A DNA stretch of 64,000 nucleotides from Candidatus Aminicenantota bacterium. GTDB lineage: Bacteria; Acidobacteriota; Aminicenantia; S016-38. Each line of letters starts with the position of its first letter. Within the stretch, counting starts at the first letter, position 1. This document shows, piece by piece, positions 14,933 to 46,627 of the stretch. Made by a program: the position numbers and the translations under genes. The DNA lies in contig JAMOUJ010000006.1 in NCBI GenBank assembly GCA_027068075.1, forward strand, positions 1 to 64,000. Direction: 5' to 3'. The notes below the pieces were generated by a model that was not told where the DNA came from, did not search any database, and saw only the letters and a program-made list of their open reading frames with translations.

Positions 14933-15589
14933 ATGAGTAAATTTTTTAAATCGGTGGGGGTCTTGCTCTGCCTTTATCCCCTGCTGGGGGATGGGGTGGA
15001 AAAATCCCTGGAAGTTTGGAGCCTCATGGGATTTTTTGAAATTTCCCTGCTCCTTCTCCTTCTGGGATTTATCCTTCATGCGGCTTCCCCCTATTATCGC
15101 CGCGCCACTTCGGAGTTCAAACTCAAAATCAGTTCGGAGAACTTCGGAATAATATTCCTCTGGATCCGGGACCTGGCCCTCTTTGCCTCCTTCGGAATAG
15201 GGGCTATGCTCATAAACCCCGACATCTTCGCCGACATAAAACTGGCCCTCCCCTTCGTTCCCCTGGGGGTGGTTTTACTGGGCTTTGCCCTGGTGGTGAA
15301 GGTTCACAGGAACCTGGAGGGGGACCGGAGAGATAGAAAACTTTTCATGTGGCTGCTTTCCCTATCTGCCCTTCTCCAGTACTTCGGCTTCGTTTTCGTC
15401 ATGGAGGCGGCCCCTTCGGAATGGGTCTCCTCTGGAAAGGCCGGGAGGTTCTGGGCCTTTCTGAGGGGCCTCAGGTCCAACCTGAACCCTGACCTTTCCA
15501 TGTGGACCTTTTACCTGGTTTTCCCACTTCTGGCGGTGGTTTTTCTCCTATTGATCCTGGGAGGAGTTCGCCGGGGAACTCGCCCTTAA
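14933..15589 (+). CDS. Integral membrane protein of unknown function
   Basis: 218 residues, not recognised. About five hydrophobic segments: near residues 34-53, 73-95, 105-123, 139-157 and 194-213, separated by short charged loops. No cysteine pairs, His clusters or other cofactor motifs. Between the last two segments is a longer hydrophilic loop (APSEWVSSGKAGRFW, then LRGLRSNLNPDLS). It is the only plus-strand gene between the ribosomal operon and the minus-strand block. It converges with the polyferredoxin gene, whose stop shares the TTAA at 15586-15589. A protein of this size and topology could be a membrane anchor, but nothing in the sequence shows a partner. Confidence 0.8.
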   Translation: MSKFFKSVGVLLCLYPLLGDGVEKSLEVWSLMGFFEISLLLLLLGFILHAASPYYRRATSEFKLKISSENFGIIFLWIRDLALFASFGIGAMLINPDIFADIKLALPFVPLGVVLLGFALVVKVHRNLEGDRRDRKLFMWLLSLSALLQYFGFVFVMEAAPSEWVSSGKAGRFWAFLRGLRSNLNPDLSMWTFYLVFPLLAVVFLLLILGGVRRGTRP

Positions 15590-17028
15590 CTCCCGGAGGA
15601 CCTGAGGGGATAAACCCTGATGGCCCTGGGGGATTGGGGGCATTTGTTCTCGCATATTCCGCATCCTATGCAAAGGTCGTCTACCACCACCGGGGCCTTC
15701 ATCCTCACCTTCTCCCCCCGTGGGGTGATGGCCTCCACCTCTATGAGTTTTATGGCCTTGGTGGGAACCGGGCAGTGTTCCTCGCACACTATGCATTCTT
15801 CCCCGTAGGCAAAGGGCAGGCATATGGAGCGGTCCACCCGGGCAACACCCATTTTTTTCGTCTCCGGGGTGAAGGGACCTATGGCGCCGGTGGGGCATAG
15901 GTACTGACACAGGAGGCAATCGTATTCGCAGTAACTCAACTCCGTGGCCAGGCGGGGGGTGGAGTAATTCTCCAGGCCGTAGAGGAGCCCCATGGGTTGA
16001 AGGACCCCCGTGGGGCATCCCTTCACACACTCTCCACACCTTATACAACGGGATGTAAAGTCCTGAACGGCCCCCGGTGGCCTTAGGACTTCCCGGTTTC
16101 CCCTGACCAGAGGGAGAGCAAGGAGGGAGGAAGCGGCGGTCAGCAGGACCTCCCTCCTCCGGAGGTCTATGCCCTGGGCCTCCGCCTTTGAGGTCGTGGA
16201 AAATTCCGAAAGAATGGCCTTTTCAGGGCAGAGGTCGTGGCATCGGAAGCATTGATAACATTCCCCGGCCTTCCATCCCAGAAAGGGGGTGGCGGAGGCC
16301 GGACACACGGCATCGCATATTCCGCACTTGGTGCATTTTTCGGGATCAATCCTCAACCTCAGGAGGTTGGACCTGGATAGGAGGGAGAGGAGGGCTCCGT
16401 AGGGGCAGAGGTATCGGCACCAGAAGCGTTCCTCCACCAGGTTGAGGAGAAGGATTGCCAGGAGCAGAACTCCTGACCCCAGGGCCCCGTAGAAAAAGTG
16501 GGGTTCCACCAGGGTGTAGGATTCTAAGGCCGGGAATATTCTGGCCAGCCCTTCCAGAACGAGGTTGGCCCCGGGATGAATGGCCGTGGCCATGGCCCTG
16601 AAGAGAAGTCCCAGGGGATCCAGGAGGGTGCCTATCCCCATGCCGTAGAGGGCCGCCGCAAAAAAGACCACCAGAAGGAGGTATTTGTACTTGAGGGGCG
16701 GTGGGCGGAACCTCCTTTTTTTGACCCGGAAGGCCCACGAAAAAAGGGCGTTCAGGGTTCCCAGGGGACAGACCCAGCCGCAGAAGAACCTCCCCAGGAA
16801 AAGGGTGAAAAGGAGCATGGCCAGGGAAAAAAGGGAGAGGACGGCCAGGGTTCTGGAGGCCAGGAGAGATATGGCCACGGCGTAGAGGTCGGAGCGGAAG
16901 AAAAGGGAGAGCCACGGAGAGACCTCGTCGGTGCCGAAGAACCCCGTTCTTAAAAACAGGTAGATAAAGAGAAGGAAGAAAACGGCCTGGGAAAACCTCC
17001 TCAGCCAGCGGAGTGCCCTGTATTTCAT
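15586..17028 (-). CDS. NapH-NapG-like polyferredoxin fusion, membrane-bound
   Basis: 480 residues. The N-terminal 240 resemble NapH/MauN: four or five membrane segments and two CxxxCP motifs, Cys83-Cys87 (CGWVCPLG) and Cys204-Cys208 (CRYLCPYG). Two ferredoxin motifs follow (Cys232/235/238/242 and Cys257/260/263/267). Residues 289-310 (LRRREVLLTAASSLLALPLV) look like a twin-Arg leader in the middle of the chain. Beyond it are four more Cys clusters (328-338, 367-378, 403-419, 453-463) as in NapG/MauM, itself a Tat-exported ferredoxin. I read it as a quinol-linked electron carrier with a cytoplasmic first half and a periplasmic second half. The fusion order is visible; topology and role are inferred. 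Its ATG overlaps the DUF362 stop. Confidence 0.87.
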   Translation of the reverse strand: MKYRALRWLRRFSQAVFFLLFIYLFLRTGFFGTDEVSPWLSLFFRSDLYAVAISLLASRTLAVLSLFSLAMLLFTLFLGRFFCGWVCPLGTLNALFSWAFRVKKRRFRPPPLKYKYLLLVVFFAAALYGMGIGTLLDPLGLLFRAMATAIHPGANLVLEGLARIFPALESYTLVEPHFFYGALGSGVLLLAILLLNLVEERFWCRYLCPYGALLSLLSRSNLLRLRIDPEKCTKCGICDAVCPASATPFLGWKAGECYQCFRCHDLCPEKAILSEFSTTSKAEAQGIDLRRREVLLTAASSLLALPLVRGNREVLRPPGAVQDFTSRCIRCGECVKGCPTGVLQPMGLLYGLENYSTPRLATELSYCEYDCLLCQYLCPTGAIGPFTPETKKMGVARVDRSICLPFAYGEECIVCEEHCPVPTKAIKLIEVEAITPRGEKVRMKAPVVVDDLCIGCGICENKCPQSPRAIRVYPLRSSGS

Positions 17029-17870
17029 GCCTTTAAAATCTTCAATTTCGCCTTGCCCAGTCCCCTTTCCCCGGCTATTTTTACCCAGGGAGGGTTCCGG
17101 AGGCCCAGAAATTCAGCCCCCCAGGCATCGGCCCCCACCGGGTCCCCGGTGACCAGAACCCTTTTCATCAGTGCCACATCGGATAGATTCCCGCCCACGG
17201 GGCCGTGGGCCTTCAGGATTCTGTAAGCGTCTACCACATAAAGGCTGGGTTTGAAGAAGGCGGCAAGGTCCACCACCGCCGTGTGAATGCGGCGGTGAAG
17301 GTATCCCCTTCTACCCCCGATGAGTCCCATGAGGTTTTTCATGGCGATGGTGGCTCCGGCCAGGGAATGGTGCTTAACTATGGGAACATCAATTATCCTG
17401 TCCACCTCCAGGGCCTGGCGGTAAACCTCCCATTCCTTCAAGAATTCCCCACCTATCCTTTTCTTCACCAGATGGTTTTCCCGGAGAAATACGATCTCGG
17501 CCCCGGCTTTTCTGGCTTCCCTGGCTATTCCAGAGCGGTAATATGTCCTTTTGGCAGGATTGCATGGATTGTCAAAGACCATAACCCTTTTGGCCCCGGC
17601 TTCGTAGGCTGTTTCCACCACCGCCCTCACCACCAGAGGGTTGGTATCCGCCGCCTGTTCGGGCCTCCGGTCCCAGCCCATGTTGGGCTTCACCAGAACC
17701 ACATCCCCCCGGGAGGCCACCCTTTTTACGCCGAAGGCCCTGAGGGCCCTCCGGGTGATCTCGTAGGGATCGCCTCCCTCTACCTCCACCGCTTCGGGTT
17801 CCCTTGCCTCCCCAAGAAGGAGGGAGGCCACAGAACCCGCCACCAGCCTGAAAAACTCCCTCCTTTTCAT
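17025..17870 (-). CDS. DUF362 family protein with Tat-type leader
   Basis: 281 residues. The N-terminus MKRREFFRLVAGSVASLLLG is a twin-arginine leader (RREFFR plus a hydrophobic core). The body matches the DUF362 family: GDVVLVKPNMGW, TNPLVVRAVVETAYEAGAKR, MVFDNPCN, IIDVPIVKHHSLAGATIAMK followed by NLMGLIGGRRG, and LVTGDPVGADAW. The biochemical activity of the family is, to my knowledge, poorly defined; members often accompany ferredoxins. It sits between amidase and polyferredoxin with ATGA overlaps on both sides, so all three are made from one message, and it probably works with the polyferredoxin outside the membrane. A second DUF362 gene lies at 42895-43713. Confidence 0.88.
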   Translation of the reverse strand: MKRREFFRLVAGSVASLLLGEAREPEAVEVEGGDPYEITRRALRAFGVKRVASRGDVVLVKPNMGWDRRPEQAADTNPLVVRAVVETAYEAGAKRVMVFDNPCNPAKRTYYRSGIAREARKAGAEIVFLRENHLVKKRIGGEFLKEWEVYRQALEVDRIIDVPIVKHHSLAGATIAMKNLMGLIGGRRGYLHRRIHTAVVDLAAFFKPSLYVVDAYRILKAHGPVGGNLSDVALMKRVLVTGDPVGADAWGAEFLGLRNPPWVKIAGERGLGKAKLKILKA

Positions 17871-39882: not shown

Positions 39883-41844
39883 TTAAAAAAAGGAGAGGAC
39901 GAGCAGGAGGGCAATCCCTGCGAAGAGGCAGTTAAAGCCGAATAGAGGTATGTAGGCCAACCCTAAAAGAAGGCCCGCCAGGGAAGAGCCCACCAGATCC
40001 CAGAAAAACATTCTGGCCGGAGATTTTATCCTCCGGGAGAGATAACCGAAGAATCCCCCTTCCCCCATACCCAGAAGGGCAAAGATGAGGTAAAAGGCCC
40101 AGGGGGAAAAACCCTCCAGGGCCAGGGGAAGGGCCGAGGCGGCCAGGAGAAGGAGGAGGGCACCCCTTTTCCTGAAGAACAGGGACCCCAGCCCCAGAAA
40201 GGCCATCATCAGGCCCACGAAGAGGCTGACCTGAAGGTAAACATACCCGAACCTGTACTGGAAGAGAAGAAGATAGAGGAGTTCCAGGGAGAAGGCTGCG
40301 AAACTCACGGAACCCATCAGGTATTCCCTCCGGAGAATTACCCCCGGAAGGAGAAGGGCCAGGGGAAGAAGGATAAAAAGATTTTTTCTGGGAAGGGGGA
40401 AGGAAGGAAAGTATTGCCTCAGCCACTTGACCAGGGAGAAGAGGTAGGTCACCGGATGGCGCATTCTGTTGGGGGGAATTTCCTTTTCCAGGGCGGCCTT
40501 CAATTTTTCCATTTCCAGGGGGCCGGTTTCAAATTCCATCTGCGCCGGGAGGTAAACTTCCGGCTCAATCCCCGTCCTCCGCAGAAAATCCTCGTAATCC
40601 CCCGGGGTGAGTTTGATGGCCTCCGTGCTCCCCATCATGAAAAGACTCTGGCCTGGAACGATTACCGTGTGGGGAAAGGCTCCCCGCAGGGAGGAATACA
40701 TGGAACTCAGAACGGCCGAGTCCACATCGGAGTAGTATTCCCCCGCCGGCAGGGAAAGGGCCACCCTCCGGAACCGGGAGGCGGCCTTGCGGAAGAACTC
40801 CTCCGTGTAAAACCTCACGGCGGTGGAAGAGGAAGGGGGAGGAAGGTCCAGGATGAGGAGGTCCCGGCGGCGAGGGGCCTTTTCCACGGCCCTCATCCCG
40901 TCTTCCCTGAGCAGTTTCACGCCCCGCAGGTCAAAGAACACGGCGGCCAGGGAGGCCAGGGCAGGGTTGGGCTCCGCATAGGTTATTTCCAGACCCTTTA
41001 CCTTTCTCAAGTAGCGGAGGCACCTTCCTCCTCCCCCTATGAGGAGAACCTCCCTTCCTCCAGGCACCAGGGACAAAAGGGCCAGTTTTTCCGCCGGGGA
41101 TGGGGGAAAGTCGTAGAGTTTCTCTGAGTTTACCCATATGGTTTTCTGTCCATGATATTCGGTGAGGGTTATTTTTCCGTAGGGGGACTCCATAACTTCC
41201 TTCACCCTCAGGGGCTTGAAAAGCCTTTCCCAGGAGGGTTTTTCCAGGAAGGGCAGGGGCAGGAGAAGAAGGATGGTCAGTATGGCCTCCCACTTCAGGC
41301 CGTGGAGGAGGAGAAGGAGGGAGAAGATAAGGAAACTGAGGGCGGCGGCGGTGAAGGAGTGGAAGTTCGGGAGCAGAATCAGATAGAGGAGAAGCGAGGA
41401 GGCAAAGGACCCCAGGGAATCGGCTCCATAGACCAGGGCGGGATTTTTAAACCTCCGGGAAAGGGACGAGAAGAAACCGCCCGAAATGGACGAAAACCAC
41501 GCCATTAAAAGGAAAACCGCCGGGTAAAACCATGGGGAGGGAAGGGCTCCCACCGAGGCCCTGGACTTCCAGTAGAGAAGGCGGGTTGCGTAAAGGGCCA
41601 GGAAAAAGGAGGGCCCCATAAGCAAAAACAACCGCCGGTGGTGGACCCTTTTTAGAATAACCGCTCCCAGGCCCGCCCACAGGAGGTAGAAGGTTAGGTA
41701 AAGGGCTAAGACCAGTTCGTTGGCGGGAAGCAGGGCGAGAACTTCCCTCAGGAAGATTATCTGGGCGGAGAAGGAGGCGAAACCGGCGGCAAAACTAAGC
41801 CCAAACCCCGGGGATTTTTTCCCCGCAGAACTTGCATTTTCCAT
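39883..41844 (-). CDS. Membrane protein with spermidine-synthase-like domain
   Basis: 653 residues. About six membrane helices (about 12-190), a Rossmann domain related to spermidine synthase (about 215-400), then about six more helices. The domain has SPYGKITLTEYHGQKTIWVN, VLLIGGGGRCLRYL (SAM-type Gly loop), AEPNPALA and DLPPPSSSTAVRFYTEEFF. In aminopropyltransferases the equivalent is D-L-P-D-P, and a catalytic Asp is expected there; here Pro replaces it, so true spermidine synthase activity is doubtful. The flanking helices put it in the inner membrane. It overlaps the radical SAM gene by 50 bases and is last in its operon. Confidence 0.82.
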   Translation of the reverse strand: MENASSAGKKSPGFGLSFAAGFASFSAQIIFLREVLALLPANELVLALYLTFYLLWAGLGAVILKRVHHRRLFLLMGPSFFLALYATRLLYWKSRASVGALPSPWFYPAVFLLMAWFSSISGGFFSSLSRRFKNPALVYGADSLGSFASSLLLYLILLPNFHSFTAAALSFLIFSLLLLLHGLKWEAILTILLLLPLPFLEKPSWERLFKPLRVKEVMESPYGKITLTEYHGQKTIWVNSEKLYDFPPSPAEKLALLSLVPGGREVLLIGGGGRCLRYLRKVKGLEITYAEPNPALASLAAVFFDLRGVKLLREDGMRAVEKAPRRRDLLILDLPPPSSSTAVRFYTEEFFRKAASRFRRVALSLPAGEYYSDVDSAVLSSMYSSLRGAFPHTVIVPGQSLFMMGSTEAIKLTPGDYEDFLRRTGIEPEVYLPAQMEFETGPLEMEKLKAALEKEIPPNRMRHPVTYLFSLVKWLRQYFPSFPLPRKNLFILLPLALLLPGVILRREYLMGSVSFAAFSLELLYLLLFQYRFGYVYLQVSLFVGLMMAFLGLGSLFFRKRGALLLLLAASALPLALEGFSPWAFYLIFALLGMGEGGFFGYLSRRIKSPARMFFWDLVGSSLAGLLLGLAYIPLFGFNCLFAGIALLLVLSFF

Positions 41845-42898
41845 GTTTTATGTTGTTCTCCTTGATTTCAAAGCCCACCCTCTTTATCAGGGGTTTTTTA
41901 CAGCGGGGGCAGTAGGTGGTTTCGGCGGGATGGCCCGGCACATTTCCCACATATACGAACTTGAGGCCCTCCTCCATGGCCACTTCCCTGGCCCTTTCCA
42001 GGGTGGATATGGGGGTGGCCGGCAGGTTTTTAAGGAGGTACATGGGGAAGAACCGGGAAAAATGGACAGGGACCTGGGGGCCTGCGTTTTTGACCATCCA
42101 CCGGCTCATTTTCCTTATCTCGTCCATGCCGTCGTTGAGCCCGGGGATCACCAGGTAAACTATTTCCAGCCATTTTCCGCTTTCGGCGGACAGAACGATG
42201 GCGTCCAGCACCGGTTTGAGTTTGCCCCGGACTATTTTTTTGTAGAAATCCTCGCTGAAGGCCTTGAGGTCTATCTTAACCGCATCCATGGCCGCCAGTA
42301 TGTCCTTCCAGGGCCTGGGGTTCACATGGGCTCCGGTGATCACCACATTTCTTATCCCCAGCCTGGAGGCTTCCCGGGCGGTATCCAGCATGTATTCCAC
42401 GAAGATTACGGGTTCGGTGTAGGTGTAGGCTAAGATGGGGGCGTGGTACCTGTAGGCCAGGTGGGCCGTCCTTTCAGGAGGGATTTTGTAAAATCTGACC
42501 TGCTCCGGCCTTACCTGGGAAATCTGCCAGTTCTGGCAGAACTTGCAGTTGACATTGCATCCGGCGGTGGCTATGGAAAAGGCCTTTCTTCCGGGAAGAA
42601 AGTGAAAAAGGGGTTTCTTCTCCACCGGGTCCAGGGCCAGGGTAACGGGTCTTCCGTAAACCAGGGATATGTATTCTCCCCCCCGGTTCTCCCTCACCCC
42701 ACAGTATCCCCTTTCCCTGTCTCCCACCACGCAGTACCTGGGGCAGAGGAGGCATCTAACCCTCCTGTCCGGTAGTTTTTCCCAGTATAGGGCCCGGTGT
42801 CTGGAGAGGTCCGGGGCCGGGGAGGCCTCCGCTTCAAAATCCAGGCCCGAGAGGACCAGCCCGGTCCCCACCAGTTTTATGAAATCCCTTCTCTTCAT
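41795..42898 (-). CDS. AmrS-type radical SAM enzyme with Tat-like leader
   Basis: 367 residues. The body matches the radical SAM protein of the AmmeMemoRadiSam system: N-terminal Cys49/52/56/66, then the radical SAM cluster Cys114-x3-Cys118-x2-Cys121 (AGCNVNCKFCQNW), TYTEPVIFVEYMLDTA, VKIDLKAFSEDFYKKI and a C-terminal zinc-ribbon-like pair (YCPRCKK, KCKFCGEK). The product has not been defined for the family, to my knowledge. It is unusual in that MKRRDFIKLVGTGLVLSGLD at the N-terminus is a twin-arginine leader pattern. Start ATG overlaps the DUF362 stop. No Memo or AMMECR1 gene is adjacent. Confidence 0.88.
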   Translation of the reverse strand: MKRRDFIKLVGTGLVLSGLDFEAEASPAPDLSRHRALYWEKLPDRRVRCLLCPRYCVVGDRERGYCGVRENRGGEYISLVYGRPVTLALDPVEKKPLFHFLPGRKAFSIATAGCNVNCKFCQNWQISQVRPEQVRFYKIPPERTAHLAYRYHAPILAYTYTEPVIFVEYMLDTAREASRLGIRNVVITGAHVNPRPWKDILAAMDAVKIDLKAFSEDFYKKIVRGKLKPVLDAIVLSAESGKWLEIVYLVIPGLNDGMDEIRKMSRWMVKNAGPQVPVHFSRFFPMYLLKNLPATPISTLERAREVAMEEGLKFVYVGNVPGHPAETTYCPRCKKPLIKRVGFEIKENNIKHGKCKFCGEKIPGVWA

Positions 42899-43713
42899 AA
42901 TTCCACCACCTGATAACTGGTTTTTCCCAGGCCCATTTTTTCGGCGGTGATGAGCCAGTGGGGAAACCTCTTTTCCTCCTTCAGGGAGGGCAGTCCCGCC
43001 CTGGCCCTGAACTTCTCTACGAGGCTCCAGCCGAAGTGGTCCACCGCCACGGGGTCCTCCCCCATGATGATGAGACCCGGGGTGGCGAACCACCGGGAGT
43101 GGTAGGATGGTCCCCGGTGGAATTGAACCCGGGTGGCGTCTATCACGGTGAGGGTGTGGTGGGAGGATACGGGCTCTGAGGCGAAGACCTGGGGAATGAA
43201 GGGATCGCACCCGTCGTCGTGATACTTATTGGGGTTGTGGATGGCTCCGTAGTAGTTCTTCATGCCCAGGGTAACCCCGGCTATGTCGTGATCCTTGAGC
43301 ACCGCCAGGGAGATGGAGGCCCGGGAAAAGACCTGGATTTTTGAGAACAGGGACCCCACTTCCCCGTAGGAGTAGAGTTCTTCGGAAAAGCCCACCCTGG
43401 GGGAGTCGGTGGCCAGAACCTTTATCCGTCCCCTTCTCTTTATCCGGTATCCCGCCCTCCTAAGTTCCCATTCGCTCCTGTCCCATATTATCGCCTCCTC
43501 TGCTCCGGCTTCCACGGCCAGTTGAGCCAGGGCGTTGGCCAGGCCCGGGGATGTGGAGATTTTTCTCCCTCCCAGGGTGTTTACCTTGAGGGACAGGGTT
43601 CCTCTGGGAAAAAGCCTGCGGAGGCAGGTCCTATTGGACTTGCAGAGGGCCGAAATCCCCTTTTTCAGGGCCGAGGAGAAGTCCCCCCTCACCCTTACGA
43701 CTAAAACCCTCAT
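42895..43713 (-). CDS. DUF362 family protein, no leader
   Basis: 272 residues, second DUF362 member in the window. Landmarks: LSLKVNTLGGRKISTSPGLA, VLKDHDIAGVTLGMKNYYGA followed by IHNPNKYHDDGCDPFIPQVF, and ATPGLIIMGEDPVAVDHFGW. There is no Tat leader, unlike the paralog at 17025-17870, so it is probably cytoplasmic. It is followed by the AmrS-like gene with an ATGA overlap. Its start is 12 bases after the PQQ-like gene and has its own extended -10 promoter exactly 6 bases before the ATG. The family's activity is not settled; pairing with a radical SAM gene suggests an electron or metal-cofactor role. Confidence 0.87.
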   Translation of the reverse strand: MRVLVVRVRGDFSSALKKGISALCKSNRTCLRRLFPRGTLSLKVNTLGGRKISTSPGLANALAQLAVEAGAEEAIIWDRSEWELRRAGYRIKRRGRIKVLATDSPRVGFSEELYSYGEVGSLFSKIQVFSRASISLAVLKDHDIAGVTLGMKNYYGAIHNPNKYHDDGCDPFIPQVFASEPVSSHHTLTVIDATRVQFHRGPSYHSRWFATPGLIIMGEDPVAVDHFGWSLVEKFRARAGLPSLKEEKRFPHWLITAEKMGLGKTSYQVVEL

Positions 43714-43728
43714 AATAAGATTTTATCA
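43714..43728 (-). promoter_or_regulatory. Extended -10 promoter for a leaderless DUF362-AmrS message
   Basis: On the minus strand TGA then TAAAAT (43725-43720), six bases, then the ATG. It overlaps the end of the PQQ-like gene. The spacing puts the start on the ATG. Confidence 0.6.
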
Positions 43729-44712
43729 CCTTTTGAACACGGTGACCTTTCCGTCAAGAGTTAAAAGAAGGAGGAAGCCCCGGGTAACCAGGGGCGGAGA
43801 GTAGGAGGGGCCGCCGGCATAGGCCGTTTTCAGGAGACTTCCCCGAAAATCCAGTTGATAGAGGAAGCCGGAACTGTCCACCACGAAGATAAAGGAGTTC
43901 TTTACCAGGGGCTTTGCCACCACCCTGGACCTGGTTTTGAACCTCCAGCGGACCCTTCCCCCTTCATCCAGGAGGAGCACTTCCCTGCCCGGGGCCAGGA
44001 CCATGGAGTTTTTCAGGGCCGCGGGGGGAGCCACCAGGGGGGCCCCGAAGACCTTTTTCCACTTTATTTTACAGTCTTCGTCGGAGAAAAGGAGGGTTTT
44101 TCCCATGGTGAAGGCGAGGCGGTCCCCCCGGGGGGATATGTGAAGGGGACCCGGCCATGGCCTGGAAAAGGTGCAAAACACCCTTCCCTGGGAGGAAAGA
44201 CCGTAGAGGTCCCCCCTTATGTTTCCTATGTAAACGGCCTTCCCCATTTTTACAGGGGCCGAATAAAAGGGACCCGAAAGCCTCTTTCTCCACAGAACCC
44301 TTCCGGTCTCCAGGGAGAGTTTGTATAAGATACCCCGGGCGGTTCCCGCGTAAAGAGCCCCACCGTCCACCAGGGCCTTAGCCAGAAAGGAATCCCGCCT
44401 TCTCAGGGACCAGAGGGGTTTTGCCCCCTTCAGGTCAAAACAGTGGAGGAAACCCCGGAGGGTGGGGACGACGAGGAGGTCGTGGACGAGGCTTTCCCCC
44501 ATGAGCCGGGTCCCGGGAAACCTCCGATGCAGGGAAACCGTCCTTTTCTCCAGGTCCAGGACGAAAAACCCGGCGGTTCCCACCAGGACCGCCTTCCCTC
44601 GCCAGAGGAGGGGGGTGGAGTGGGTGAAGTTGTCCCTCAGGTGGAGTTCCCAGTAGGGGGTAAGGGCCGCCATGGGAAAAACCAGGAATAGGATCAGGAT
44701 TTTACGAAACAT
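43726..44712 (-). CDS. PQQ-like beta-propeller protein, secreted
   Basis: 328 residues with a signal peptide (1-17, PMAAL). The body is a series of 35-45-residue units with Trp-docking-like endings: FVLDLEKRTVSLHRRF, LHCFDLKGAKPLWSLRR, LYKLSLETGRVLWRKRL, CKIKWKKVFGAPLVAP, LDEGGRVRWRFKTRSRV. This fits a PQQ_2/BamB-like propeller of about seven blades. It lacks cofactor-binding residues of true quinoproteins, so a scaffold role is more likely. It overlaps the glycosyltransferase end by 11 bases. Confidence 0.85.
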   Translation of the reverse strand: MFRKILILFLVFPMAALTPYWELHLRDNFTHSTPLLWRGKAVLVGTAGFFVLDLEKRTVSLHRRFPGTRLMGESLVHDLLVVPTLRGFLHCFDLKGAKPLWSLRRRDSFLAKALVDGGALYAGTARGILYKLSLETGRVLWRKRLSGPFYSAPVKMGKAVYIGNIRGDLYGLSSQGRVFCTFSRPWPGPLHISPRGDRLAFTMGKTLLFSDEDCKIKWKKVFGAPLVAPPAALKNSMVLAPGREVLLLDEGGRVRWRFKTRSRVVAKPLVKNSFIFVVDSSGFLYQLDFRGSLLKTAYAGGPSYSPPLVTRGFLLLLTLDGKVTVFKR

Positions 44713-46627
44713 CCTTCCACCCCTTCAGGGAGAATAGGTAAACAAAGGGAGAGAAGGGCGAAGTGTATCTGGGCAGACCGAAGAACAGCAGAACCATCAG
44801 GATAAATCCTCCGAGGGTCACCAGGGGAAACCTGAATTTTCCCGGGTTTTTCAGGGATGTTAAGACCCCCACCAGGGCCAGAAGGTAAAGAACCAGTTTA
44901 ACCCCTTCGGAAAAGGGGGTGTAGAACTTGAACCTCAGGAGGGAGATTCCGTAATGCTTTTCGCCGGGAACCCCCGGGGGATGCCATTGGCGGTTCTTAG
45001 GTTCCTTCCAGAAGGCCCAGTAAAGTTTCAGGGGGATCAGGCGGAGGATGTTGCCGGGATGGCGGAGGTTGTAGGCGATGATTTCCCGGACGGAGGTGGG
45101 GTCGTGGCCCATCCTCTCCCATTTCCTTATCACCGAGGCCGGCACCAGCCACCCTCCGTTGGAGAAGGGGGAATTCCCCTCCAGGAAGGTGTAGGGTCCG
45201 GCCCTGCTGACGGGGACGAGCCTTTTTTCCTTCAGGGAGCACCTGATGGACCACGGACCCACCACCAGGAGAAGGGCGAAGAGCAGAGCCAGACCTTCCC
45301 TCCTCTTTTTAACGGCGGGCCACAGTGGGGCGAAGACCAGGGCAATGGGCCTTATGAGGGAGGACAACCCCAGGAGTCCTCCGGTCCAGAACGCCGCCCT
45401 CCCTTCCGTCCTTCCCAGGAGGTAGAAGCCCAGGAGAAAGAAGGGCAGGAATAGGCCTTCAGATTCCACGCTGGCGAAGTATATGGTGTATCCTGACAGA
45501 CCCGTAAGGACCACCAGGGCCGCAGGAGGCAACCGATATTCCTCCCCTATCTTCTTCAAGACGAGGAGGGCCATAAGAAAGAGAAGGGTTTTAAAAAAAA
45601 TGTAGGCGGTCCAGTTTCTGGAGAAAAGCCATACGAAGAGGGCGTTGTAGTAAATCGTCCCCGGTGGCCAGTGGCAGGGTCCGTTTCCCCCCACCAGTAT
45701 TTCCTCGCCGAAGGAGAAACCCCGCAGGAGGCTTTCCGCCCGTATCAGGTATTCCCATGTATCAAAGTAGAGAAAACCTCCGGGACTGACCCTGTAGAAA
45801 TAGAGCCCCTGGAGAAGGAACAGGAAACCCAGGATTACCAGAAGTAAAACTAAAGAAAATCTGAGGCCTCGCACCCTTTTCCACATAAAAAGAAAAAGAA
45901 GGGAAAAAGGCAGGAGAAAAATCTCCAGCAGATGCCAGGGGAAAAATACTGGAAAGGTTCTGTCGCCTACCCGAATAAGCGTCCCTTCCTTTTTGATCAA
46001 AAGGGTATCCACCCTGACTATCTTGAAGTTTTTGAGGGAGAACAGGATGCCTTTGGGGACCCACATGTGAACTCCCCGGGGTGTTTTCCTGGCTCTTCCC
46101 ACGAAGGTTATCACCCGGTGCCCTTTTCCCCTCAACCCCATTACCGGATGCCCGTCCACGAAAATTTTCCCCCGCCCCACGGAAAACCTGATGCTTCCCC
46201 GGTAAAAATTGAGGGCGTAAATCCCCACCAGGAGGGCCATGGCCACGAGGGCCGCATACCGTAGGTTTTTCCGGAGGCGCAGGGCCAGGCGGAGGGTCGT
46301 GGCCAGAACCAGGGCCGAAAGGAGAAAATACCAGTAGAAGTAAAAAGTCGGTTTCCCCCGGAGCAGGAGTTCGGACTCAAGCATAAAGGGTCTGGAGAAG
46401 TAAATTGCCCTGGAGGAGAGGAACAGGGCGTAAAGGTTGAAGGCAAAGAGAAAGAGGGCCGTTTTTCGGTCCTTTTTTGAGACCAGGTAGATGGAGGTCA
46501 GAAGGGCCAGTTGGGCGGCCAGGAAAAACGGTGTGGCGGCAAAGGGAAAGGAGTAAAACCCGGGATAGTTCACCGTGCCGATGGCGGCCAGGAGAAGGAA
46601 GGGGCCCCATTTTTTCGTTGAAACCAT
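44702..46627 (-). CDS. GT-C fold glycosyltransferase, multi-pass membrane protein
   Basis: 641 residues. Two hydrophobic halves. The N-terminal 250 residues have about six helices with a basic soluble insert (residues about 145-215, GKIFVDGHPVMGLRGKG). From about 270 a GT-C-like core begins: FDTWEYLIRAESLLRG (with the acidic residue expected in the first loop), FASVESEGLFLPFFLLGFYL, GLLGLSSLIRPIALVFAPLW, and a C-terminal helix set. It resembles ArnT/PMT-type transferases that use a polyprenyl-phosphate sugar. Sugar and acceptor are unknown. First gene of the minus operon. Confidence 0.82.
   Translation of the reverse strand: MVSTKKWGPFLLLAAIGTVNYPGFYSFPFAATPFFLAAQLALLTSIYLVSKKDRKTALFLFAFNLYALFLSSRAIYFSRPFMLESELLLRGKPTFYFYWYFLLSALVLATTLRLALRLRKNLRYAALVAMALLVGIYALNFYRGSIRFSVGRGKIFVDGHPVMGLRGKGHRVITFVGRARKTPRGVHMWVPKGILFSLKNFKIVRVDTLLIKKEGTLIRVGDRTFPVFFPWHLLEIFLLPFSLLFLFMWKRVRGLRFSLVLLLVILGFLFLLQGLYFYRVSPGGFLYFDTWEYLIRAESLLRGFSFGEEILVGGNGPCHWPPGTIYYNALFVWLFSRNWTAYIFFKTLLFLMALLVLKKIGEEYRLPPAALVVLTGLSGYTIYFASVESEGLFLPFFLLGFYLLGRTEGRAAFWTGGLLGLSSLIRPIALVFAPLWPAVKKRREGLALLFALLLVVGPWSIRCSLKEKRLVPVSRAGPYTFLEGNSPFSNGGWLVPASVIRKWERMGHDPTSVREIIAYNLRHPGNILRLIPLKLYWAFWKEPKNRQWHPPGVPGEKHYGISLLRFKFYTPFSEGVKLVLYLLALVGVLTSLKNPGKFRFPLVTLGGFILMVLLFFGLPRYTSPFSPFVYLFSLKGWKDVS

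Follow-up and report, generated by a model that had tools for sequence, protein, structure and literature searches.

The operon analysed here belongs, at a rough probability of 0.6, to a second AmmeMemoRadiSam system that acts outside the cytoplasm. AmmeMemoRadiSam is a broadly distributed enzyme system of unknown function, and two of its components, Memo and AMMECR1, have human homologues with disease links. Judged by their predicted signals, genomes of the bacterial class of the window (Aminicenantes-like; the window is the whole 64,000-nt stretch of DNA that was analysed) carry two AmmeMemoRadiSam sets, one cytoplasmic and one export-marked, because a Memo-AMMECR1 fusion has a signal peptide, whereas the lone AMMECR1, the lone Memo, and the second AmrS are mostly or wholly unmarked. 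Set 1 consists of a leaderless AmrS, a lone Memo, and a lone AMMECR1. Set 2 consists of an AmrS with a twin-arginine (Tat) leader and the signal-peptide Memo-AMMECR1 fusion, linked to a DUF362 protein and a membrane protein with a SpeE-fold domain, and its parts co-occur and share operons across phyla.

Layout and conservation of the operon

The genes lie on the minus strand in the order DUF362, AmrS, and SpeE-fold membrane protein, with overlaps of 4 nt (ATGA) between DUF362 and AmrS and of 50 nt between AmrS and the membrane protein. The features are as follows:

42895..43713, minus strand: DUF362 protein, 272 aa, first operon gene (PF04015, 63 bits, E 4.8e-17)
43258..43290, minus strand: DUF362 motif H142-x2-AG-x-T-x-G-x-K152, corresponding to LarA HxxAGx[ST]xGxK
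41795..42898, minus strand: AmrS-type radical SAM enzyme, 367 aa (TIGR04337, E 2.9e-113; PF04055)
42824..42898, minus strand: twin-arginine leader MKRRDFIKLVGTGLVLSGLDFEAEA, likely cleaved after AEA (RR conserved in relatives; TatC in genome)
42536..42559, minus strand: radical SAM cluster motif C114-NVN-C118-KF-C121 (CxxxCxxC), invariant in the alignment
39883..41844, minus strand: integral membrane protein, 653 aa, with ~7 transmembrane helices, a SpeE-fold domain, and 7 further helices (from the model, SpeE matches, and hydropathy and positive-inside analysis)
40465..41208, minus strand: SAM-binding-like domain with a SpeE fold, spanning residues 213-460 and predicted to lie outside the cytoplasm

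A sequence-only reading had placed three genes here, and all three are confirmed at the stated positions, on the minus strand and with overlapping ends. It had also described an AmrS that keeps every radical SAM cysteine behind an RR/hydrophobic leader, and this description holds as well: besides the cluster motif, the protein retains the CxxCx3C...C set at its N-terminal end and the CxxC pairs at its C-terminal end, in columns that are invariant in the alignment. AmrS scored 378 bits against TIGR04337 (cut-off 220).

The operon is kept throughout the class. AmrS with a leader is accompanied by DUF362, the SpeE-fold protein, and/or Memo-AMMECR1 at all 35 class loci and at 54 of the 72 named leader loci. 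The second AmrS paralogue, compared at 20 loci, never has DUF362, Memo, or AMMECR1 nearby and has a SpeE-fold gene nearby once. We are highly confident that the module is real and conserved, and the proposal of an unstudied membrane-associated system is supported both by this wide co-location and by the RR leader kept in relatives. Two upstream genes, encoding a PQQ-like propeller (43726-44712) and a membrane protein (44702-46627), were dropped as parts since they are conserved beside the operon only within the genus. A search of viral contigs gave a single weak match, and a search of plasmids gave distant AmrS only.

Export signals and the two AmmeMemoRadiSam sets

The predicted leader suggests that AmrS is a Tat substrate: the N-terminus, which runs from MKRRDFIKLVGTGLVLSGLDFEAEA into SPA, combines an RR motif, a moderate hydrophobic stretch, and an AxA-like site, and the genome encodes TatC. 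Leader and signal-peptide calls throughout were made with heuristics rather than SignalP. By these calls, the leader is present at 72 of the 80 named AmrS loci, in at least 15 phyla, and its label changes 3 times on the AmrS tree versus 25.9 times for shuffles. The second AmrS paralogue is leaderless in 21/21 cases within the class.

As the sequence-only reading had stated, no Memo or AMMECR1 gene adjoins AmrS in the window genome. That genome nevertheless encodes, elsewhere, a Memo-AMMECR1 fusion that is likely the export-marked partner of the Tat-leader AmrS, together with stand-alone copies of Memo and of AMMECR1, and in many other lineages the fusion lies inside the operon. Partner genes adjoin AmrS in one family (f5) and at 28 of the 72 named leader loci. 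Among cultured bacteria, Desulfoferrobacter suflitae DRH4 (L151) has a leader-bearing AmrS next to a Memo-AMMECR1 fusion with a signal peptide. The fusion L068 matched Memo-like protein B (TIGR04336) with 245 bits (cut-off 26) and AMMECR1-like protein A (TIGR04335) with 187 bits (cut-off 99). A signal peptide was called on 67/70 fusions versus 1/12 lone Memo and 0/11 lone AMMECR1 proteins, and some partner proteins carry lipoboxes instead of plain signal peptides. The signal-marked fusions retain the signature motifs of Memo (30/30) and of AMMECR1 (28/30).

Of 60 genomes compared, 45 had both Tat-AmrS and the fusion, 3 had Tat-AmrS alone, 4 had the fusion alone, and 8 had neither (p 2.6e-5; Fisher tests, here and below, ignore kinship, and most of the genomes are MAGs). 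The absence of the fusion from the three Tat-AmrS genomes that lack it (G006, G042, and G051) may reflect contig breaks.

Collectively, all three families (TIGR04335, TIGR04336, and TIGR04337) score above their NCBIfam cut-offs and retain their catalytic and signature motifs. The module differs from AmmeMemoRadiSam as known in that AMMECR1 and Memo are fused behind a signal peptide, AmrS bears a Tat leader, DUF362 and the SpeE-fold membrane protein are linked to it, and a leaderless set stands in the same genome. Since export signals on AmrS and on the fusion depart from a system of cytoplasmic components, we regard the module as a variant of AmmeMemoRadiSam. Our literature search returned no account of an exported AmmeMemoRadiSam or of a Tat-exported radical SAM enzyme; a study of Memo-Ammecr1 systems that lay outside this search (Burroughs et al. 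2019, cited in PMC7159879) may hold prior notice.

The membrane protein and DUF362

By sequence, the membrane protein is weakly a spermidine synthase (PRK03612, E 5e-12; Pfam under cut-off), and its model (pLDDT 90.4) has the SpeE fold, with matches at E 1e-9. The SAM-binding-like domain that had been recognized inside it was thus recovered in the model, with a weak sequence match, and the twelve helices first counted give way to 14 in the family prediction. Two strongly hydrophobic segments flank the SpeE-fold domain in 96-100% of the 52 members, and the charge bias between inside and outside is 1.9 versus 0.5; the domain is accordingly predicted, from sequence, to lie outside the cytoplasmic membrane. 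Helices around a SpeE-fold domain are shared with the fused MFS/spermidine synthase NF037959 (matched by 38/52 members) and the aminopropyltransferase PRK03612 (52/52), from which the family differs in its altered Asp pair, its 14-helix arrangement, and the linked AmmeMemoRadiSam module. The SAM-type nucleotide motif is conserved (G270, G271, E291, and D315), whereas the catalytic Asp pair (D-S-[ST]-D-P) is Asn/Glu in most members and reads D-L-P-P-P in the window. More specifically, 28 of the 52 members have Asn at the catalytic position and 12 have Asp, and the second Asp is mostly Glu or Asp, with Pro in the window. Given the loss of this pair, we rejected spermidine synthesis for most members.

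DUF362 shares Pfam clan CL0471 with the LarA/DUF2088 lactate racemase superfamily (PMC11770544). Searches of PDB sequences with the DUF362 protein, as a single sequence and as a profile, gave no match, and only the fold search succeeded: the model (pLDDT 96.7) matched lactate/malate racemase in Foldseek (prob 1.00, E 6e-5, TM ~0.5). The ends of the DUF362 motif have putative LarA counterparts with the same His-x9-Lys spacing, H142 corresponding to the catalytic His174 and K152 to Lys184, which tethers the nickel-pincer nucleotide; hhalign placed this motif in register, but weakly (E 0.0036, Prob 9). H142, G146, K152, and H165 are invariant in 45/45 sequences, and H165 was matched to the Ni-ligand His200 by order only. 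DUF362 thus resembles LarA/DUF2088 in its fold and in HxxAGx[ST]xGxK followed by a His, and differs from it in being shorter, in weak sequence similarity, in often being Tat-marked, and in that an equivalent of the first catalytic His of LarA (H108) was not seen.

In the window genome, LarC and LarE were found and LarA was not. The operon DUF362 associates with LarC (p 3e-5), although 10 genomes that lack the operon DUF362 have LarC too, which weakens LarC as a simple marker. We tentatively put forward the nickel-pincer nucleotide as a candidate DUF362 cofactor; the fold link to LarA offers a testable cofactor for this large family of unknown function.

Site of action

The sequence-only reading had called export of a radical SAM enzyme surprising and suggested that the leader may instead anchor AmrS to the membrane. 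We share the surprise, yet the sequence evidence points to export. A leader that merely tethers AmrS inside, where it would act with cytoplasmic SAM on its partners before or during their export, has a modest chance of being correct: SAM and electrons are cytoplasmic, and at 4 Nitrospirota loci a leaderless AmrS adjoins a signal-peptide or lipoprotein Memo-AMMECR1, so that export of AmrS is not required in every case. However, the charges of AmrS leaders precede the hydrophobic stretch (N-in, remainder out), a Chloroflexota AmrS (L125) combines RR with a lipobox and a Pro-rich linker, and the partner proteins each bear a separate signal peptide or lipobox; we therefore prefer export to a cytoplasmic tether. 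RRxF is also conserved well past the needs of an anchor, Tat-type leaders occur on DUF362 as well (~25/65 cases), and the SpeE-fold domain is outside by predicted topology. Counting against export, DUF362 is leaderless in the genus of the window, and 4 genomes have the fusion without Tat-AmrS.

Alternatively, AmrS could act once in the cytoplasm, as an activase would, and then leave with or in the finished complex, with no turnover outside. The SAM supply problem would then disappear, Tat could carry the folded enzyme, and the nearest relatives of AmrS are indeed glycyl-radical-enzyme activases by profile and PFL-AE in the PDB. We consider this improbable, since separate signals (Tat for AmrS, Sec or lipoprotein for Memo-AMMECR1) argue against a joint exit as one complex, and the AmrS cluster cysteines are all retained. 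That there is no distinct system, only an ordinary AmrS paralogue with a meaningless inherited extension and unrelated neighbours, accords with the unknown function of every component but is scarcely credible: it is already contradicted by the phyletic breadth and few label changes of the leader and by co-location with partners that bear matching export signals.

Under the preferred extracytoplasmic reading, AmrS, and often DUF362, would fold and take up cofactors in the cytoplasm and exit via Tat, which exports folded, cofactor-bearing proteins, and the fusion would exit via Sec, sometimes as a lipoprotein. The AmrS domain, which we place outside the membrane with somewhat better than even confidence, would then cooperate with DUF362 and the fusion on the outer side of the cytoplasmic membrane, together with the outward SpeE-fold domain. 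DUF362 would probably be a LarA-like hydride-transfer enzyme sharing its substrate with the module, and the 14-helix protein might, speculatively, supply or recycle SAM-derived nucleotides across the membrane. Against this reading, the operon shows no source of SAM or low-potential electrons for the outside, and we know of no such extracytoplasmic source. A supply of SAM by the membrane protein is unlikely, and it is equally doubtful that all elements combine into a widespread radical SAM pathway outside the cell membrane, with AmrS, a LarA-like nickel DUF362, Memo-AMMECR1, and SAM via the 14-helix carrier.

If AmrS does work outside, the assumed cytoplasmic confinement of SAM-dependent radical chemistry would be wrong, and this would be, to our knowledge, the first extracytoplasmic case. 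An exported AmmeMemoRadiSam would also narrow the location of the substrate to the envelope, a lipid, or an exported protein, and brings two new partners to the system.

The window operon and its AmrS

The window shows one part of an export-marked AmmeMemoRadiSam module, an operon on the minus strand, and this module is a conserved variant of the known AmmeMemoRadiSam system. The three genes that the sequence-only reading had placed at 39883-43713 were all found as described:

42895-43713, minus strand, DUF362 protein, upstream of AmrS and overlapping it by 4 nt
41795-42898, minus strand, AmrS, the AmmeMemoRadiSam radical SAM enzyme
39883-41844, minus strand, SpeE-fold membrane protein, downstream of AmrS and overlapping it by 50 nt

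The AmrS N-terminus, MKRRDFIKLVGTGLVLSGLDFEAEASPA, is a good twin-arginine (Tat) leader with an AxA-type site. The protein retains all of its cluster cysteines, which agrees with that earlier reading, and it is a full member of TIGR04337. The class of the window genome (1.9 Mb) is Aminicenantes-like, since one record in its family matches Candidatus Aminicenantes AUK249 identically at the operon locus (L050 and L161). The genome contains a TatC gene, as well as a second AmrS that lacks the leader (C3:142671). The leader form (46-91% identical) is distinct from the leaderless form across 60 related genomes. In a quick maximum-likelihood tree with 116 sequences, all 21 leaderless paralogues of the class fell on one side of a starred branch (98). 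On this tree, the leader label required 3 changes, versus 25.9 when labels were shuffled. One exception among the paralogue loci is L203 (G057:C214), in which two tandem AmrS genes, both encoding RR leaders, occur in addition to the operon copy.

Conserved neighborhood and the Memo-AMMECR1 fusion

The gene order DUF362, AmrS, SpeE-fold membrane protein is found at most leader loci of the class, and family f5 carries a Memo-AMMECR1 fusion in place of the membrane protein. A scan of named genomes yielded 80 AmrS loci, of which 72 encode a leader, usually RRxF, in some cases plain hydrophobic, and in a few with KR or RK; the scan ordered loci by how closely they resemble a leader form, so they are not a census. 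Leader AmrS was found in Acidobacteriota, Planctomycetota, Poribacteria, Zixiibacteriota, KSB1, Calditrichota, Thermodesulfobacteriota, Myxococcota, Omnitrophota, Elusimicrobiota, Lentisphaerota, Verrucomicrobiota, Kiritimatiellota, Latescibacterota, Krumholzibacteriota, and Chloroflexota, among others. DUF362 is present at 38 of the 72 named leader loci, a Memo-AMMECR1 fusion or Memo at 28, and a SpeE-fold protein at 25, with all four components together at 6; the 18 loci with no partner gene include several on short contigs.

The window genome encodes four Memo homologues and two AMMECR1 homologues. Its Memo-AMMECR1 fusion, whose true start was overlooked by simple gene calling, begins with MRRLFLLLFFSLAVAS followed by TRPPYVAGSFYP, so that a signal peptide precedes Memo. 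The Memo PHxG and AMMECR1 LRGCIG motifs are retained in the exported fusions. When a single objective rule was used on all loci, signal-like starts were called in 67 of 70 fusions, versus 1 of 12 lone Memo proteins and none of 11 lone AMMECR1 proteins. The three fusions that failed the rule have starts that resemble signal peptides by eye, several fusions carry lipoboxes, and the sole signal-like lone Memo is a Chloroflexota lipoprotein that adjoins a leader AmrS. In addition, a hand-compiled table of the 60 genomes revealed that Tat-AmrS and the fusion co-occur (both in 45, only one in 3 and 4, neither in 8; p = 2.6e-5, with kinship not controlled).

Two further kinds of Memo homologue were observed. 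In family f2, the Memo-AMMECR1 fusions L219, L220, and L221 are divergent and have hydrophobic leaders; Tat-AmrS and LarC are both missing from the genomes that encode them. On contig C2 of the window genome (G000), locus L071 (6406-7449, minus strand) encodes a divergent Memo homologue that starts with the signal-peptide-like MKKVLTLFMTLSFVVGAG and has no AMMECR1 partner in its vicinity.

DUF362 and lactate racemase

DUF362 and lactate racemase (LarA) belong to a common Pfam clan (PMC11770544). The structural model of the operon DUF362 protein (pLDDT 96.7) matches lactate and malate racemases. The motif HxxAGx[ST]xGxK, which in LarA contains His174 and the nickel-pincer-tether residue Lys184, is retained in DUF362, and neither H142 nor K152 varies across 45 sequences. 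The retention of this LarA-type motif in DUF362 is new here. It lies in register with that of LarA (hhalign, E 0.0036 but Prob 9), and the likewise invariant H165 may occupy the place of a LarA nickel ligand, an equivalence by order in the same Prob 9 alignment.

The nickel-pincer cofactor genes LarC (G000:C5:676795) and LarE (G000:C3:94244) are present in the window genome, and no LarA was found in this genome or in the window's family. LarC tends to be present where the operon DUF362 is (32/3/10/15; p = 3e-5, and 1.5e-4 when restricted to genomes without LarA), but some genomes have LarC without the operon DUF362.

Predicted location of the module

The AmrS leader carries its charges ahead of the hydrophobic stretch; given the established positive-inside rule, its insertion would therefore put AmrS outside. 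In the Chloroflexota AmrS L125, the RR is accompanied by a lipobox (LSC) and a linker rich in proline; this lipoprotein architecture is meaningful only for a protein on the outside. About 25 of 65 DUF362 relatives have Tat leaders. A fold search with the membrane protein matched spermidine synthases; nucleotide-site residues are retained and the catalytic Asp pair is mostly not. Its segments 184-201 and 488-504 equal the other helices in hydrophobicity in 96-100% of 52 members, and the in-loops carry 1.9 K/R against 0.5 in the out-loops. With both segments hydrophobic, the positive-inside rule therefore predicts the SpeE-fold domain to be outside. It would be inside were neither segment transmembrane, and parity leaves no mixed answer.

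Against an outside AmrS stand four Nitrospirota loci (L135, L140, L145, and L158), where a leaderless AmrS adjoins a signal-peptide or lipoprotein-like Memo-AMMECR1 fusion; these loci offer a natural test of the need for AmrS export. The need for SAM and electrons on the outside also counts against it. Judged from the sequences, an outside location of the module nevertheless appears well supported.

The window also contains a second Tat-leader DUF362 (17025-17870, minus strand), followed directly by a NapH/NapG-like membrane polyferredoxin (15586-17028, minus strand); this pair (15586-17870) is a possible electron route to the outer face. In the Chloroflexota leader AmrS of L155 (3174-4475, plus strand), a haem c-like CxxCH lies between the leader and the first Cys cluster.
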